Below, piece after piece: positions 34,098 through 37,770 of a stretch of 64,000 nucleotides of DNA. How positions within the stretch are numbered: the first letter of the stretch is position 1; each line of letters opens with the position of its first letter. Under the pieces are notes generated by a model. It ran no database searches. It worked only from the letters and a program-made list of their open reading frames with translations, and had not been told where the DNA came from. Source of the stretch: Mesorhizobium sp. Root157 (GTDB lineage Bacteria > Pseudomonadota > Alphaproteobacteria > Rhizobiales > Rhizobiaceae); the NCBI RefSeq assembly GCF_001427385.1, contig NZ_LMGJ01000005.1, positions 1 through 64,000 on the forward strand. Direction: 5' to 3'. The position numbers and the translations under genes are program-made.

Positions 34098-34574
34098 ATG
34101 ATCAAGAAACTTGCCCTCGCCGCGACGTTTGCCGCCCTTGGCCTGGCAACCTCGGCGAACGCCACCGGCCGCTTCGAACTCGGCGTCCTCGACTGCTCGA
34201 TCGATGGAGGTACGGCCTACGTCGTGACATCCAACAAGGGCGTGTCTTGCACATTCCGCCCGTCGAACGGCGGCGCGTCCGAAGTCTACACCGGCGTCAT
34301 TTCCAAGCTGGGCGTCGACCTCGGCACCACCCATCAGGGCCAACTGGTGTGGGCGGTCCTTGCCGCCACGCGCGACTATGACAGCGGCAACCTTGCCGGC
34401 AACTATTATGGCGTCAACGCCGAGGCGAGCGTCGTGACCGGCGGCGGCGCCAACCTGATGCTCGGCGGCTTCCAGCGCTCCTATGCCTTGCAGCCGCTGA
34501 GCGTGCAGGCTCAGACCGGGCTGAACCTGGCTGTCGCGGTAACGTCGCTCGAACTGATGCATTCGCTGAAATAA
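34098..34574 (+). CDS. DUF992 family secreted protein
   Basis: A 158-residue protein with a signal peptide (KKLALAATFAALGLATSANA) and the DUF992 pattern: FELGVLDCSI with the first Cys, SNKGVSCTFRP with the second, and a C-terminal Gly/Ala-rich segment ANLMLGGFQRSYALQPLS. It is an exported beta-rich protein of unknown function, typical of Rhizobiales. AGGAGA lies 6 bases before the ATG and a terminator follows. Confidence 0.85.
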   Translation: MIKKLALAATFAALGLATSANATGRFELGVLDCSIDGGTAYVVTSNKGVSCTFRPSNGGASEVYTGVISKLGVDLGTTHQGQLVWAVLAATRDYDSGNLAGNYYGVNAEASVVTGGGANLMLGGFQRSYALQPLSVQAQTGLNLAVAVTSLELMHSLK

Positions 34575-34612
34575 CCAGCGATGGGCATCGCCCTGGCAAG
34601 GCCCGATCCCGC

Positions 34613-34640
34613 AAAGGCGGCGCTGATACGCCGCCTTTTT
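34613..34640 (+). terminator. terminator after the DUF992 gene
   Basis: Perfect 10-bp stem AAAGGCGGCG / CGCCGCCTTT with a 6-nt loop and trailing T residues. The flanking A-run means it may also serve coaBC from the other side. Confidence 0.85.
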
Positions 34641-34659
34641 CTCGTTCAAGGAGGCAGGC

Positions 34660-36141
34660 TCAGGCCTTGGCTTCCGCGCTTTCCAATTTCTCGGCAATCA
34701 CGGCGGCAAGCCGCTCCGCCACCTCTGCCTTGGTCATCTCGGGCCATGCGTCGACGCCGGTGCGCGAAACGATGCGCACGCTGTTGCGGTCGCCGCCCAT
34801 GACACCGGACGGCCCGACGCCACTGTCGTGCGAAACGTCGTTAGCGACGATGAAATCGGCGCCCTTCTTGTTCAGCTTGGCTTCGGCATTCTTTTGAATG
34901 TTCTGGGTTTCGGCGGCAAAACCGATGACCAGGAAGGGCCGCTTGGCGTGATGGCCGACGCCGGCCAGGATGTCGGGGTTCTCCACCATCTGCAACGCCG
35001 GCGGTCCTTCCCCCACGACCTTCTTGATCTTTTCATCCGCCGAATTGGCCGTGCGCCAGTCGGCCACAGCAGCCACGAACACGGCAGCGTCTGCCGGCAG
35101 CAATTGCTCGACGGCGGCCTGCATTTCGCGGGCGCTTTCCACGTGGGTGGTGTTGACGCCTGCGGGGTCGGGGATCGTCACTGGCCCAGAGACGAGCCGC
35201 ACGTCCGCGCCGAGCTTCGCCAAGGCCGCGGCGATGGCGTGGCCCTGCTTTCCCGACGAGCGGTTGGCAATGTAGCGGACCGGGTCGATGGGCTCATGCG
35301 TGGGGCCTGACGTGACGATGATCTTGCGGCCGGTCAACGGTTTCGCACTCTGGTCGAGCATCGTTTCGACCGCGGCTACGATGTCCAGCGGCTCGGCCAT
35401 GCGCCCCTCGCCGGATTCACCGCTTTCGGCCATTTCGCCGCGCGCCGGCCCGATGAACCCGACGCCGTCCTTCTCAAGCGTGGCGCGGTTGCGGCGCGTC
35501 GCCGGGTGGCTCCACATTCTCGGATTCATGGCAGGCGCCATCAACACCGGCTTGTCGGTGGCCAGAAGCACGGTCGAGGCCAGATCGTTGGCAAGCCCAT
35601 TGGCAAGCTTGGCCATCAAGTCGGCCGTCGCCGGGGCGACCACGATCAGGTCGGCCTCGCGCGACAGGCGGATATGGCCGATGTCATGCTCATCCTTGCG
35701 GTCAAACAGATCGGTGAAGACATGGTCCGCCGCAAGCGCGCCGACCGACAGAGACGTGACGAATTCCTGCGCTGCCGCAGTCATCACCGGCCGCACGGCA
35801 GCCCCTCGCTCGCGCAGGCGGCGGATGAGGTCGAGTACCTTGTAGGCGGCAATGCCGCCGCCGATGATGAGAAGGATGCGCTTGTTGGAGAGCTTGAAAG
35901 GCGGATCGCGCTCAGCCAAGCTTCGCGGGGGAATATCCAGTTCGAAGCCGCCGTGGGGTTCAACCATGTCGCGGATCGCATCATGGAGATTGTCGAATGG
36001 CACAGGTTTCTCGGGATGCCTTGCTTCACGCCGCAGGATGGAGCGTATCTCCTCCTCAAGCGATACACCCCTTCTGGCAGCATTGACTTTGAGCTGCTGT
36101 TTCGTGCCGTCATCCAGGTTGCGGACAGTAAGTGTGGCCAT
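34660..36141 (-). CDS. coaBC: FitA-type antitoxin domain fused to CoaBC
   Basis: A 493-residue fusion. Residues 1-40 (MATLTVRNLDDGTKQQLKVN onwards) form a FitA/VapB-like ribbon-helix-helix domain; residues 41-82 look like the normal antitoxin tail (GGFELDIPPRSLAE). The CoaC flavoprotein (phosphopantothenoylcysteine decarboxylase) runs from about 87, with catalytic His156 in GHIRLS and PAMNPRMW at 203-210. CoaB (phosphopantothenate-cysteine ligase) runs from about 272, with SGPTHEPIDPVRYIANRSSG. Normal CoaBC is about 400 residues. The ATG at 36141 has AGGAGG 5 bases upstream. No ATG or GTG start lies next to the CoaC part, so the fusion seems to be the only product. The gene follows ubiB and no PIN toxin gene is present. 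Confidence 0.88.
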   Translation of the reverse strand: MATLTVRNLDDGTKQQLKVNAARRGVSLEEEIRSILRREARHPEKPVPFDNLHDAIRDMVEPHGGFELDIPPRSLAERDPPFKLSNKRILLIIGGGIAAYKVLDLIRRLRERGAAVRPVMTAAAQEFVTSLSVGALAADHVFTDLFDRKDEHDIGHIRLSREADLIVVAPATADLMAKLANGLANDLASTVLLATDKPVLMAPAMNPRMWSHPATRRNRATLEKDGVGFIGPARGEMAESGESGEGRMAEPLDIVAAVETMLDQSAKPLTGRKIIVTSGPTHEPIDPVRYIANRSSGKQGHAIAAALAKLGADVRLVSGPVTIPDPAGVNTTHVESAREMQAAVEQLLPADAAVFVAAVADWRTANSADEKIKKVVGEGPPALQMVENPDILAGVGHHAKRPFLVIGFAAETQNIQKNAEAKLNKKGADFIVANDVSHDSGVGPSGVMGGDRNSVRIVSRTGVDAWPEMTKAEVAERLAAVIAEKLESAEAKA

Positions 36142-36155
36142 GGCAGCCTCCTGCA

Positions 36156-36196
36156 TGCATTGAAAGCAATGTAAGCATTGCTGTCAATGCAGTCAA
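36156..36196 (-). promoter_or_regulatory. coaBC promoter embedded in a four-half-site operator
   Basis: GCATTG and CAATG half-sites occur four times: GCATTG (36157-36162), CAATG (36167-36171), GCATTG (36175-36180) and CAATGCA (36185-36191), making two nested palindromes. On the minus strand -35 TTGACT (36191-36196) and -10 TACATT (36168-36173) are 17 bases apart, so repressor binding would cover the promoter. The -35 overlaps the ubiB stop codon. This layout is typical of ribbon-helix-helix autoregulation. Confidence 0.75.
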
Positions 36197-37770
36197 ATCG
36201 CCACCTTCCAGGCGATAAAGACAAGGGTCAGCGCAATCACCCAAAGCGCCAGCCGCCCTGAGCGCGTGTGGCGCGCCTCGGCCTTGCCGATGGCGTGAGC
36301 CGTGGCCTCGTCGAAGCGCAAGCCGTTTTCGGCCATGAGGTCGATCTCGCGCGACAGCCGTTCGGTTCGCAGTGCCATGTCCGGCAGGTGCCGCGCCAGC
36401 GACGACAGTGCATGCAGGCCATCGCGGGCGTCGGCCAGCATGCCGCGCGGGCCGAGATTGTCGCGAATCCAGTTGCCGACCACAGGCTCCGAAGTCTTCC
36501 ACATGTTAAAGGATGGATCGAGGGTGCGGGCGACGCCCTCCACCACGACCATGGTCTTTTGCAGGAGGACCAGTTCCGTTCGCGTCTGCATGTCGAAAAG
36601 CTCGGTCACCTCGAACAGCAGCGTGAGTAGCTTGGCCATCGAGATGGTCTCGGCCGGCTGGCCGTGGATCGGCTCGCCGATGGCGCGGATGGCCTGGGCG
36701 AAGGCGGCGACATCGTGCTTCGCCGGCACATAGCCGGCCTCGAAATGCACTTCGGCAACGCGCAGATAATCGCGGGTAATGAAGCCATAGAGGATTTCGG
36801 CCAGGAAACGGCGTTCCTTCTTGCCGAGGCGGCCGGCAATGCCGAGATCGACCGCCACGATGGTGCCGTCGGCTTCCACGAACAGATTGCCCGGATGCAT
36901 GTCGGCATGGAAGAAGCCGTCGCGCAGCGTGTGGCGCAGGAACGACTGGATCAAATTGGTGGCGATGGCCTTGAGGTCGTGACCGGCAGCATCGAGCGCC
37001 GCGATGTCGTTCATCTTGATGCCGTCGACCCACTCCATGGTGAGCACATCGCGGCCGGTGCGTTCCCAATCGACGGCTGGGACCCGGAAGCCCGGATCTT
37101 CCTTGATGTTTTCGCCAAGCTCAGAAAGGGCCGCCCCTTCAAGCCTGAGATCCATTTCGATGCGCGTTGTCTGGGCAAGGGTCTGGGTGACCTCAACGGG
37201 CCTCAGACGGCGCGACGAAGGTATGTATCTTTCCTGCAGGCGGGCGGCGAGGAAGTAGCTTTCGAGATCGTGCTGGAAGCGGCGGCGCACGCCAGGCCGG
37301 ATGACCTTGACCGCGACGCGCTTGTTCGCTCCCGCCTCATAGACGTCCGCCGGATGCACTTGGGCGATGGACGCGGCGGCAACCGCATCGCCGAAGCTTG
37401 AATAAAGTTCGCTGACCGAGCGCCCGAGCGAAGCTTCGATTGCCGCAACGGCCTCGGTCTTCGGGAAGGTCTGCATCTTGTCCTGCAAGAGCGCGAGATC
37501 GAGCGCGATGTCGTTGCCGACGACATCGGGGCGCGTGGCGAGGAACTGGCCGAGCTTCACATAGGAAGGACCGAGCCGCGCCACCGCATGCGCCAGCCGG
37601 TCGGTGCGTTGCTGCCTGAGCGCGCGGCGGCGCGTGAACAAGACCGCGGCGCGCCAGCCGAACTTGGGCAGGCCTGTAAGCTGGTCACCGGGAACCGCCG
37701 CCACCACGCCTTCGCGCACCAGCACCCAACCGGCCCGAACGAGGCGGAACGCTGCGCCGATACTGCTCAT
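36193..37770 (-). CDS. ubiB: ubiquinone biosynthesis ABC1-kinase-like protein UbiB
   Basis: A 525-residue atypical kinase of the ABC1/UbiB family, needed for aerobic ubiquinone synthesis. The KxGQ motif is in VKLGQFLATRPD, the Ala-rich loop in DAVAAASIAQVHPA, the ATP Lys in VAVKVIRPG, and the catalytic loop in FFHADMHPGNLF with VAVDLGIAG. Two hydrophobic C-terminal segments (LALWVIALTLVFIAW) anchor it in the inner membrane. It lies 13 bases downstream of ubiE. Confidence 0.93.
   Translation of the reverse strand: MSSIGAAFRLVRAGWVLVREGVVAAVPGDQLTGLPKFGWRAAVLFTRRRALRQQRTDRLAHAVARLGPSYVKLGQFLATRPDVVGNDIALDLALLQDKMQTFPKTEAVAAIEASLGRSVSELYSSFGDAVAAASIAQVHPADVYEAGANKRVAVKVIRPGVRRRFQHDLESYFLAARLQERYIPSSRRLRPVEVTQTLAQTTRIEMDLRLEGAALSELGENIKEDPGFRVPAVDWERTGRDVLTMEWVDGIKMNDIAALDAAGHDLKAIATNLIQSFLRHTLRDGFFHADMHPGNLFVEADGTIVAVDLGIAGRLGKKERRFLAEILYGFITRDYLRVAEVHFEAGYVPAKHDVAAFAQAIRAIGEPIHGQPAETISMAKLLTLLFEVTELFDMQTRTELVLLQKTMVVVEGVARTLDPSFNMWKTSEPVVGNWIRDNLGPRGMLADARDGLHALSSLARHLPDMALRTERLSREIDLMAENGLRFDEATAHAIGKAEARHTRSGRLALWVIALTLVFIAWKVAI

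Follow-up and report, generated by a model that had tools for sequence, protein, structure and literature searches.

The window (the whole stretch of 64,000 nucleotides analysed here) carries on its minus strand the gene order ubiE, ubiB, coaBC, the first of which we take to be ubiE from its translation. Between ubiB and the enzyme proper, coaBC begins with an in-frame module of the FitA-like ribbon-helix-helix (RHH) kind. The features of the locus are as follows.

34660 to 36141, minus strand: RHH-CoaBC fusion gene, 493 residues; start from homology with sister genes and from AGGAGG at 36152-36147
36019 to 36141, minus strand: FitA-like RHH core, residues 1-41 (PF22513, E 8e-16; AlphaFold2 helices 11-24 and 28-41)
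35893 to 36018, minus strand: antitoxin tail serving as linker, residues 42-83 (alignment to the free antitoxin of L004)
35365 to 35883, minus strand: CoaC flavoprotein domain (PF02441, E 1e-32)
34771 to 35337, minus strand: CoaB (DFP) domain (PF04127, E 5e-66)
36193 to 37770, minus strand: ubiB, upstream neighbour in the same direction (TIGR01982, E 5e-170)
36156 to 36191, no strand: operator-like inverted repeat TGCATTGACAGCAATG-CTTA-CATTGCTTTCAATGCA (as read on the minus strand; inverted-repeat search and shuffles)
36191 to 36196, minus strand: -35 element TTGACT of a promoter-like site, overlapping the ubiB stop codon
36168 to 36173, minus strand: -10 element TACATT of the same site, within the inverted repeat
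34613 to 34638, no strand: hairpin between coaBC and its convergent neighbour, a possible terminator (terminator-like on the plus strand, with 1.5 such sites expected in the region from chance alone)

The frame from 36156 to 34660 on the minus strand is open throughout and gives 498 amino acids when read from 36156. In this 498-residue frame PF22513 (FitA-like_RHH) covers residues 7-44 (E 8e-16, 58.1 bits against a cut-off of 27; Pfam scan), and the CoaBC equivalog TIGR00521 is matched at full length over residues 89-486 (E 3e-122, 408.4 bits against a cut-off of 219.7; NCBIfam scan). Together with the PF02441 and PF04127 matches, this bears out the preliminary description, which had read the gene as an antitoxin-like module running uninterrupted into CoaC and CoaB: the product is a FitA-like RHH, an antitoxin tail and a complete CoaBC in a single open frame. 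The same description had assigned the strong ribosome binding site to the antitoxin start; AGGAGG does precede that start, which homology with sister genes places at the second ATG, 36141, rather than at 36156, giving a head of 83 residues. Elsewhere in the genome neither part has a recognised counterpart, as this gene is the only coaBC match in a whole-genome profile search and its head the only FitA-like RHH at E 0.001. The 51 nt from the ubiB stop to the start of the head leave no room for a toxin gene, and the head is followed by CoaBC in frame; the reported absence of a PIN toxin beside the head thus stands, two PIN proteins being encoded elsewhere in the genome.

The RHH assignment is based on Pfam and on an AlphaFold2 model built from an alignment of 31 fused proteins, from which L207 and L208 were excluded (mean pLDDT 82.1). 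In this model the head, a monomer, forms two helices (11-24 and 28-41), as expected of an RHH, with pLDDT 76-84 in the blocks spanning 11-40; the block of residues 1-10, the RHH strand region, is poorly predicted when modelled as a monomer (pLDDT 59), the tail is mostly of low confidence with one helix, and the CoaBC part is largely confident. The segments GGIAAYK, APAMNPxMW and KxKK, which we take to be the conserved catalytic segments of CoaBC, are invariant across the 31 aligned fusions. No homology to PutA, proline dehydrogenase or P5C dehydrogenase was found in the fusion (Pfam returns RHH, Flavoprotein and DFP only, and NCBIfam no PutA).

An operator-like repeat over the coaBC promoter

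The promoter proposed at first, TTGACT-17-TACATT, is the sole promoter-like site in 34500-36400, where 0.3 would be expected. The four half-sites described around it are present in the sequence; they are, however, parts of one inverted repeat of 36 bp, whose 16-nt arms pair at 15 of 16 positions (94% complementary) around a loop of 4 and which scores 12 against a maximum of 11 in 200 dinucleotide shuffles. It spans the last base of the -35 element to base 36156 and covers the -10 element, so that the autoregulatory arrangement suggested earlier is supported as a layout, that of an inverted repeat over the gene's own promoter. The gonococcal FitA operator is also made of such half-sites (TGCTATCA). 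GCATTGN4CAATGC, the core of the repeat, is present at two further places in the same genome and its reversed control at one.

The operator-like motif goes with fused genes. Within 90 nt before the start, 32 of the 38 fused named genes carry the half-site TGATTGCA/TGCAATCA, compared with 1 of the 42 unfused ones (six fused genes having no exact half-site there); the named loci and those of the genus are related, and neither these nor the other counts given here are independent. Among the 90 majority-type Mesorhizobium genes defined below, 77 carry the extended motif TGAT[TAC]GC[AG]TTGCTATCA and 84 a TGCAATC half-site at most 12 nt from the start codon, which might let a majority-type head contact the beginning of its gene as well. 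When 78 sequences are aligned on GC[AG]TTGCTATCA, an anchor whose columns are conserved by construction, the flanking TTGAT (before) and TTGC (after) are 90-100% conserved, as is CTTG at the -35 place, most of the columns in between being at 32-78%. At one mismatch or fewer, TTGATTGCATTGCWATCA has a single occurrence, immediately upstream of coaBC, in four of the six genomes searched; it was not found in the other two, G209 (which has a different head) and G387, and its reversed control was found in none of the six. Genes with other heads carry other repeats, such as the TGCAATGCTAGCA arms in L036. Eighteen fused loci were tested for an inverted repeat, and none above chance was found at L002, L032, L100 and L175, with L102 at P 0.06. 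The fourth of these (L175:1211-2581) lies in G373, a genome of 1.6 Mb that keeps the RHH head on CoaBC in the absence of an above-chance upstream repeat.

Distribution of the fusion and history of the junction

Judged by its sequence matches, RHH-CoaBC is widespread in the order and spans several families. The genus sample comprises 146 genomes, 145 of them with coaBC; all 145 loci were examined, and the ubiB-coaBC junction is fused in 103, holds an intact toxin-antitoxin module in 34, is empty in seven and could not be read in one where ubiB was not found (L125 and L140, whose frames open further upstream, were assigned to the fused class by hand). The intact modules are RHH+PIN in 23 genomes and RHH+RHH+PIN in 11, and include the ordinary antitoxin and PIN locus L099. 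In none of the 145 loci is a headless coaBC preceded by a lone, unfused antitoxin. Separately, at G826:C153:8887-9628 an RHH match in a different frame from CoaC lies 166 nt upstream of it and may be a lone antitoxin that is not fused. Sorted by motif, the heads of the 103 fused genus genes are 88 of a majority type, two 'other' (counted with the majority type, giving 90), eight with a PIN0-type antitoxin tail, four of PIN1 type and one second antitoxin. Apart from L108, none of the fused genus loci (102) has an RHH or PIN match in the gap between ubiB and the head. That gap measures 174-520 nt, likewise with no RHH or PIN match, in the fused loci L046, L059, L137, L145 and L167. In L108 itself an intact first antitoxin precedes a fused head that is the second antitoxin of a two-antitoxin module.

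Beyond the genus, at least 64 of the 109 genomes of the G387 family carry RHH-CoaBC; counted by eye among the matches listed, 54 match the whole profile and ten more show head and CoaC segments in one frame. Thirty-eight of the best-scoring 80 of 569 named relatives are fused, which is no frequency; they belong to Mesorhizobium, Phyllobacterium, Nitratireductor, Zhengella, Bradyrhizobium, Afipia, Nitrobacter, Rhodopseudomonas, Pseudolabrys and others, and include Brucella cytisi as well as L207 and L208, counted as fused with coaBC frames that end early, at 299 and 212 residues. Loci of Rhizobium, Ensifer, Sinorhizobium, Agrobacterium and Shinella among the same 80 are not fused, and Mesorhizobium is represented on both sides. 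In the order sample of 397 genomes, searched with the window's own sequence as query, at least 11 matches including the window's reach the head, an undercount, as G373 appears headless though fused (L175) and G035, also fused, falls outside the matches listed. In the class sample (289 genomes, 4 of them of the order), 228 genomes had a match, and among the roughly 150 matches listed none outside the order reaches the RHH. The preliminary description had named a sequencing error hiding a stop among the things that would undo the fusion; this is very unlikely, the same architecture being present in 102 other genomes of the genus, and with 103 of 145 genus genomes fused we reject an artefact or hidden stop as the explanation.

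The sister locus L004 (genome G248, same genus) suggests where the head came from. At its junction an intact antitoxin and a PIN toxin precede a coaBC with its own ATG, and the free antitoxin aligns with the window head over 83 of 83 residues at 75% identity, which, with PF22513, supports the antitoxin origin claimed for the head. In the window's DNA the antitoxin's TTCAAG runs straight into the codons that stand behind ATGACC in free coaBC; from L004 we infer that antitoxin codon 83 and coaBC codon 3 were brought together when the toxin was lost. The head had been described as a captured toxin-less antitoxin; most likely it was instead an intact pair at this junction, as in L004, that lost its toxin, the antitoxin probably being fused in place. 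The window's nearest relatives by coaBC, L031 and L033, both have the majority head type. The simplest history would have the inherited head replaced by a module and a new fusion then made through toxin loss, in an order of steps that we infer.

In a tree of the RHH (42 columns; the bootstrap had not settled), the heads L108, L063/L109, L007, L110, L032/L034/L038 and L035/L036/L039 are placed among the junction's free antitoxins, and the Xanthobacteraceae-type, Phyllobacterium/Brucella-type and majority Mesorhizobium heads form separate groups; the window head (L001) groups with L004 at support 88/70, together with a third, very long row. Since heads fall among free antitoxins and the junction sequences differ between fused lineages, the fusion probably arose several times. 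A coaBC tree made by a quick method, in which 48 of the 171 inner branches are open, requires no fewer than 28 changes among the three junction states, which suggests frequent change at the junction. The one-off capture of the preliminary description gives way before an architecture that is widespread in the order and whose head groups are separate: a single late capture unique to this genome is rejected, as RHH-CoaBC occurs in the genus, the G387 family and named relatives, and we also reject one head inherited everywhere in the case of the window and of several relatives, as their heads are nearer to free antitoxins. For the majority heads, one inherited head is plausible.

Modules occupy the ubiB-coaBC junction outside the genus also (L104, L106, L243, L263 and others). 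The RHH-PIN modules at the junctions of L004, L008, L062 and L066-L097 are diverse. Compared by eye, the antitoxin starts and PIN1 toxin ends of the junction modules are alike, and the antitoxin tails and toxin fronts strongly different, a pattern that looks as if it came from cassette exchange.

A proposed autogenous circuit, its rivals and its precedents

We consider it quite probable that the gene encodes an autogenously regulated, PutA-like CoaBC, whose heads would act as repressors from the repeat over the gene's promoter. In the CoaBC oligomer the N-terminal RHH heads would pair into dimers, and these dimers would bind the inverted repeat over the -35 and -10 elements of coaBC's own promoter, so that the amount of CoaBC would set its own synthesis and the promoter would be shut when CoaBC is plentiful. 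If the fusion assembles like mycobacterial CoaBC, twelve heads could form six RHH dimers, clamping the repeat. The sequences show the fusion, its breadth, purifying selection on the inherited heads and an operator-like motif accompanying fused genes; DNA binding, the sign of the regulation and any modulation by coenzyme A or substrates are predictions. A more elaborate version can be offered tentatively: RHH-CoaBC might be a coenzyme-A-responsive autorepressor, in which ligand or oligomer assembly alters the spacing of the RHH dimers and hence their grip on the promoter, and the ubiB-coaBC junction a cassette site where toxin-antitoxin modules repeatedly swap the head together with its operator.

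The dN/dS ratios (Nei-Gojobori sums over pairs, at most 1500 pairs per group, with synonymous sites near saturation in some groups; CoaC taken as its first 170 codons) are, for RHH, CoaC and linker respectively, 0.063, 0.076 and 0.379 in the 88 Mesorhizobium-type genes, 0.275, 0.219 and 0.463 in 15 Xanthobacteraceae-type genes, and 0.141, 0.099 and 0.453 in 11 Phyllobacterium-type genes, a group that keeps L207 and L208, the last L208 codons lying past its stop. In eight heads of the window's antitoxin type they are 0.228, 0.089 and 0.276; here the RHH is under weaker constraint than CoaC, and head and linker differ little, these heads having also diverged as free antitoxins. As the RHH ratio of the majority heads is low like that of CoaC, these heads are constrained as functional parts. 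The comparison supports a head that is functional rather than vestigial, most strongly for the inherited heads of the relatives and less so for the window's own type.

These figures bear directly on the view that toxin loss left an in-frame antitoxin which merely supplies a promoter and a start codon, the RHH sequence being irrelevant. Lineage-specific junction sequences, as chance events would give, and the weaker constraint on window-type heads agree with it; yet the RHH is as constrained as the enzyme in the 88 majority-type genes, the conserved block in the promoter exceeds the length of a -10 element, a second block being present at the start codon, and the architecture spans several families, which together make such a vestige extremely unlikely. 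Production of two proteins, with CoaBC made from an internal start or the head cut off to act as a separate regulator, is in our estimate very unlikely. A Met stands at or just before the old second CoaBC residue in eight of the 103 fused genus genes, and the window's tail contains an in-frame TTG, but the other 95 have no such Met, and in the alignment the linker is variable in both sequence and length and shows no visible cleavage motif.

The main alternative would make the head a retained antitoxin, one that still neutralises PIN toxins arriving with new modules (anti-addiction) or protects against a PIN protein encoded elsewhere in the genome. In the window the tail is preserved as it stands in L004's free antitoxin, and 34 of 145 genus genomes carry modules of this family at the junction. 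In addition, L179, one of the genome's own PIN proteins, shares 41% identity over 129 residues with second-type junction toxins (L008), and no RHH gene was recognised in the surrounding 3.4 kb. The window head, however, groups with the antitoxins of the other toxin type (L004) and not with L179's type; the second PIN protein, L180, is a weak match (29%, E 2e-5) with, by eye, an AbrB-like partner; and the majority heads have tails unlike those of the junction's free antitoxins and weakly constrained linkers. We regard this reading as unlikely and favour autogenous repression by the head. Many root-nodule bacteria and related species would thus have an essential enzyme of coenzyme A synthesis that probably regulates the gene encoding it. 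To our knowledge, no transcriptional control of CoaBC has been reported in these bacteria, and no description of an RHH- or antitoxin-fused CoaBC was found in the searched PMC literature. RHH-CoaBC offers a concrete, testable regulatory circuit in rhizobia, in which toxin-antitoxin modules seem to have become, on several occasions, part of an enzyme of central metabolism; likely intermediate stages of the conversion persist in sister species.

The fusion shares its complete CoaC and CoaB with the CoaBC of Mycobacterium smegmatis, which is described as a dodecamer with CoaC at its core, inhibited by CoA thioesters (PMC7794376); as CoaC is given there as residues 1-179, the mycobacterial protein has no N-terminal head. 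The CoaBC of Brucella ovis, listed in a flavoproteome survey, is the same enzyme in a relative of the fused named loci; the survey places its Flavoprotein domain at 7-180 with no head, which may reflect either true absence or the annotated start (PMC9045290). With the type II modules FitAB and VapBC the fusion shares a head (and, in the window, a tail) homologous to their antitoxins and an inverted repeat over its own promoter, but it has no adjoining toxin gene and its antitoxin runs in frame into CoaBC. Trifunctional PutA provides the precedent: it is a flavoenzyme that carries an N-terminal RHH and represses its own gene (PMC5293562), and for RHH-CoaBC too the proposed target is its own promoter. 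RHH-CoaBC differs from it in its enzyme, its biosynthetic pathway, its FitA/VapB-type head and its probably repeated origin from toxin-antitoxin modules, and no counterpart of the membrane switch of PutA is known for it; it may work like PutA, while not being a PutA by homology.
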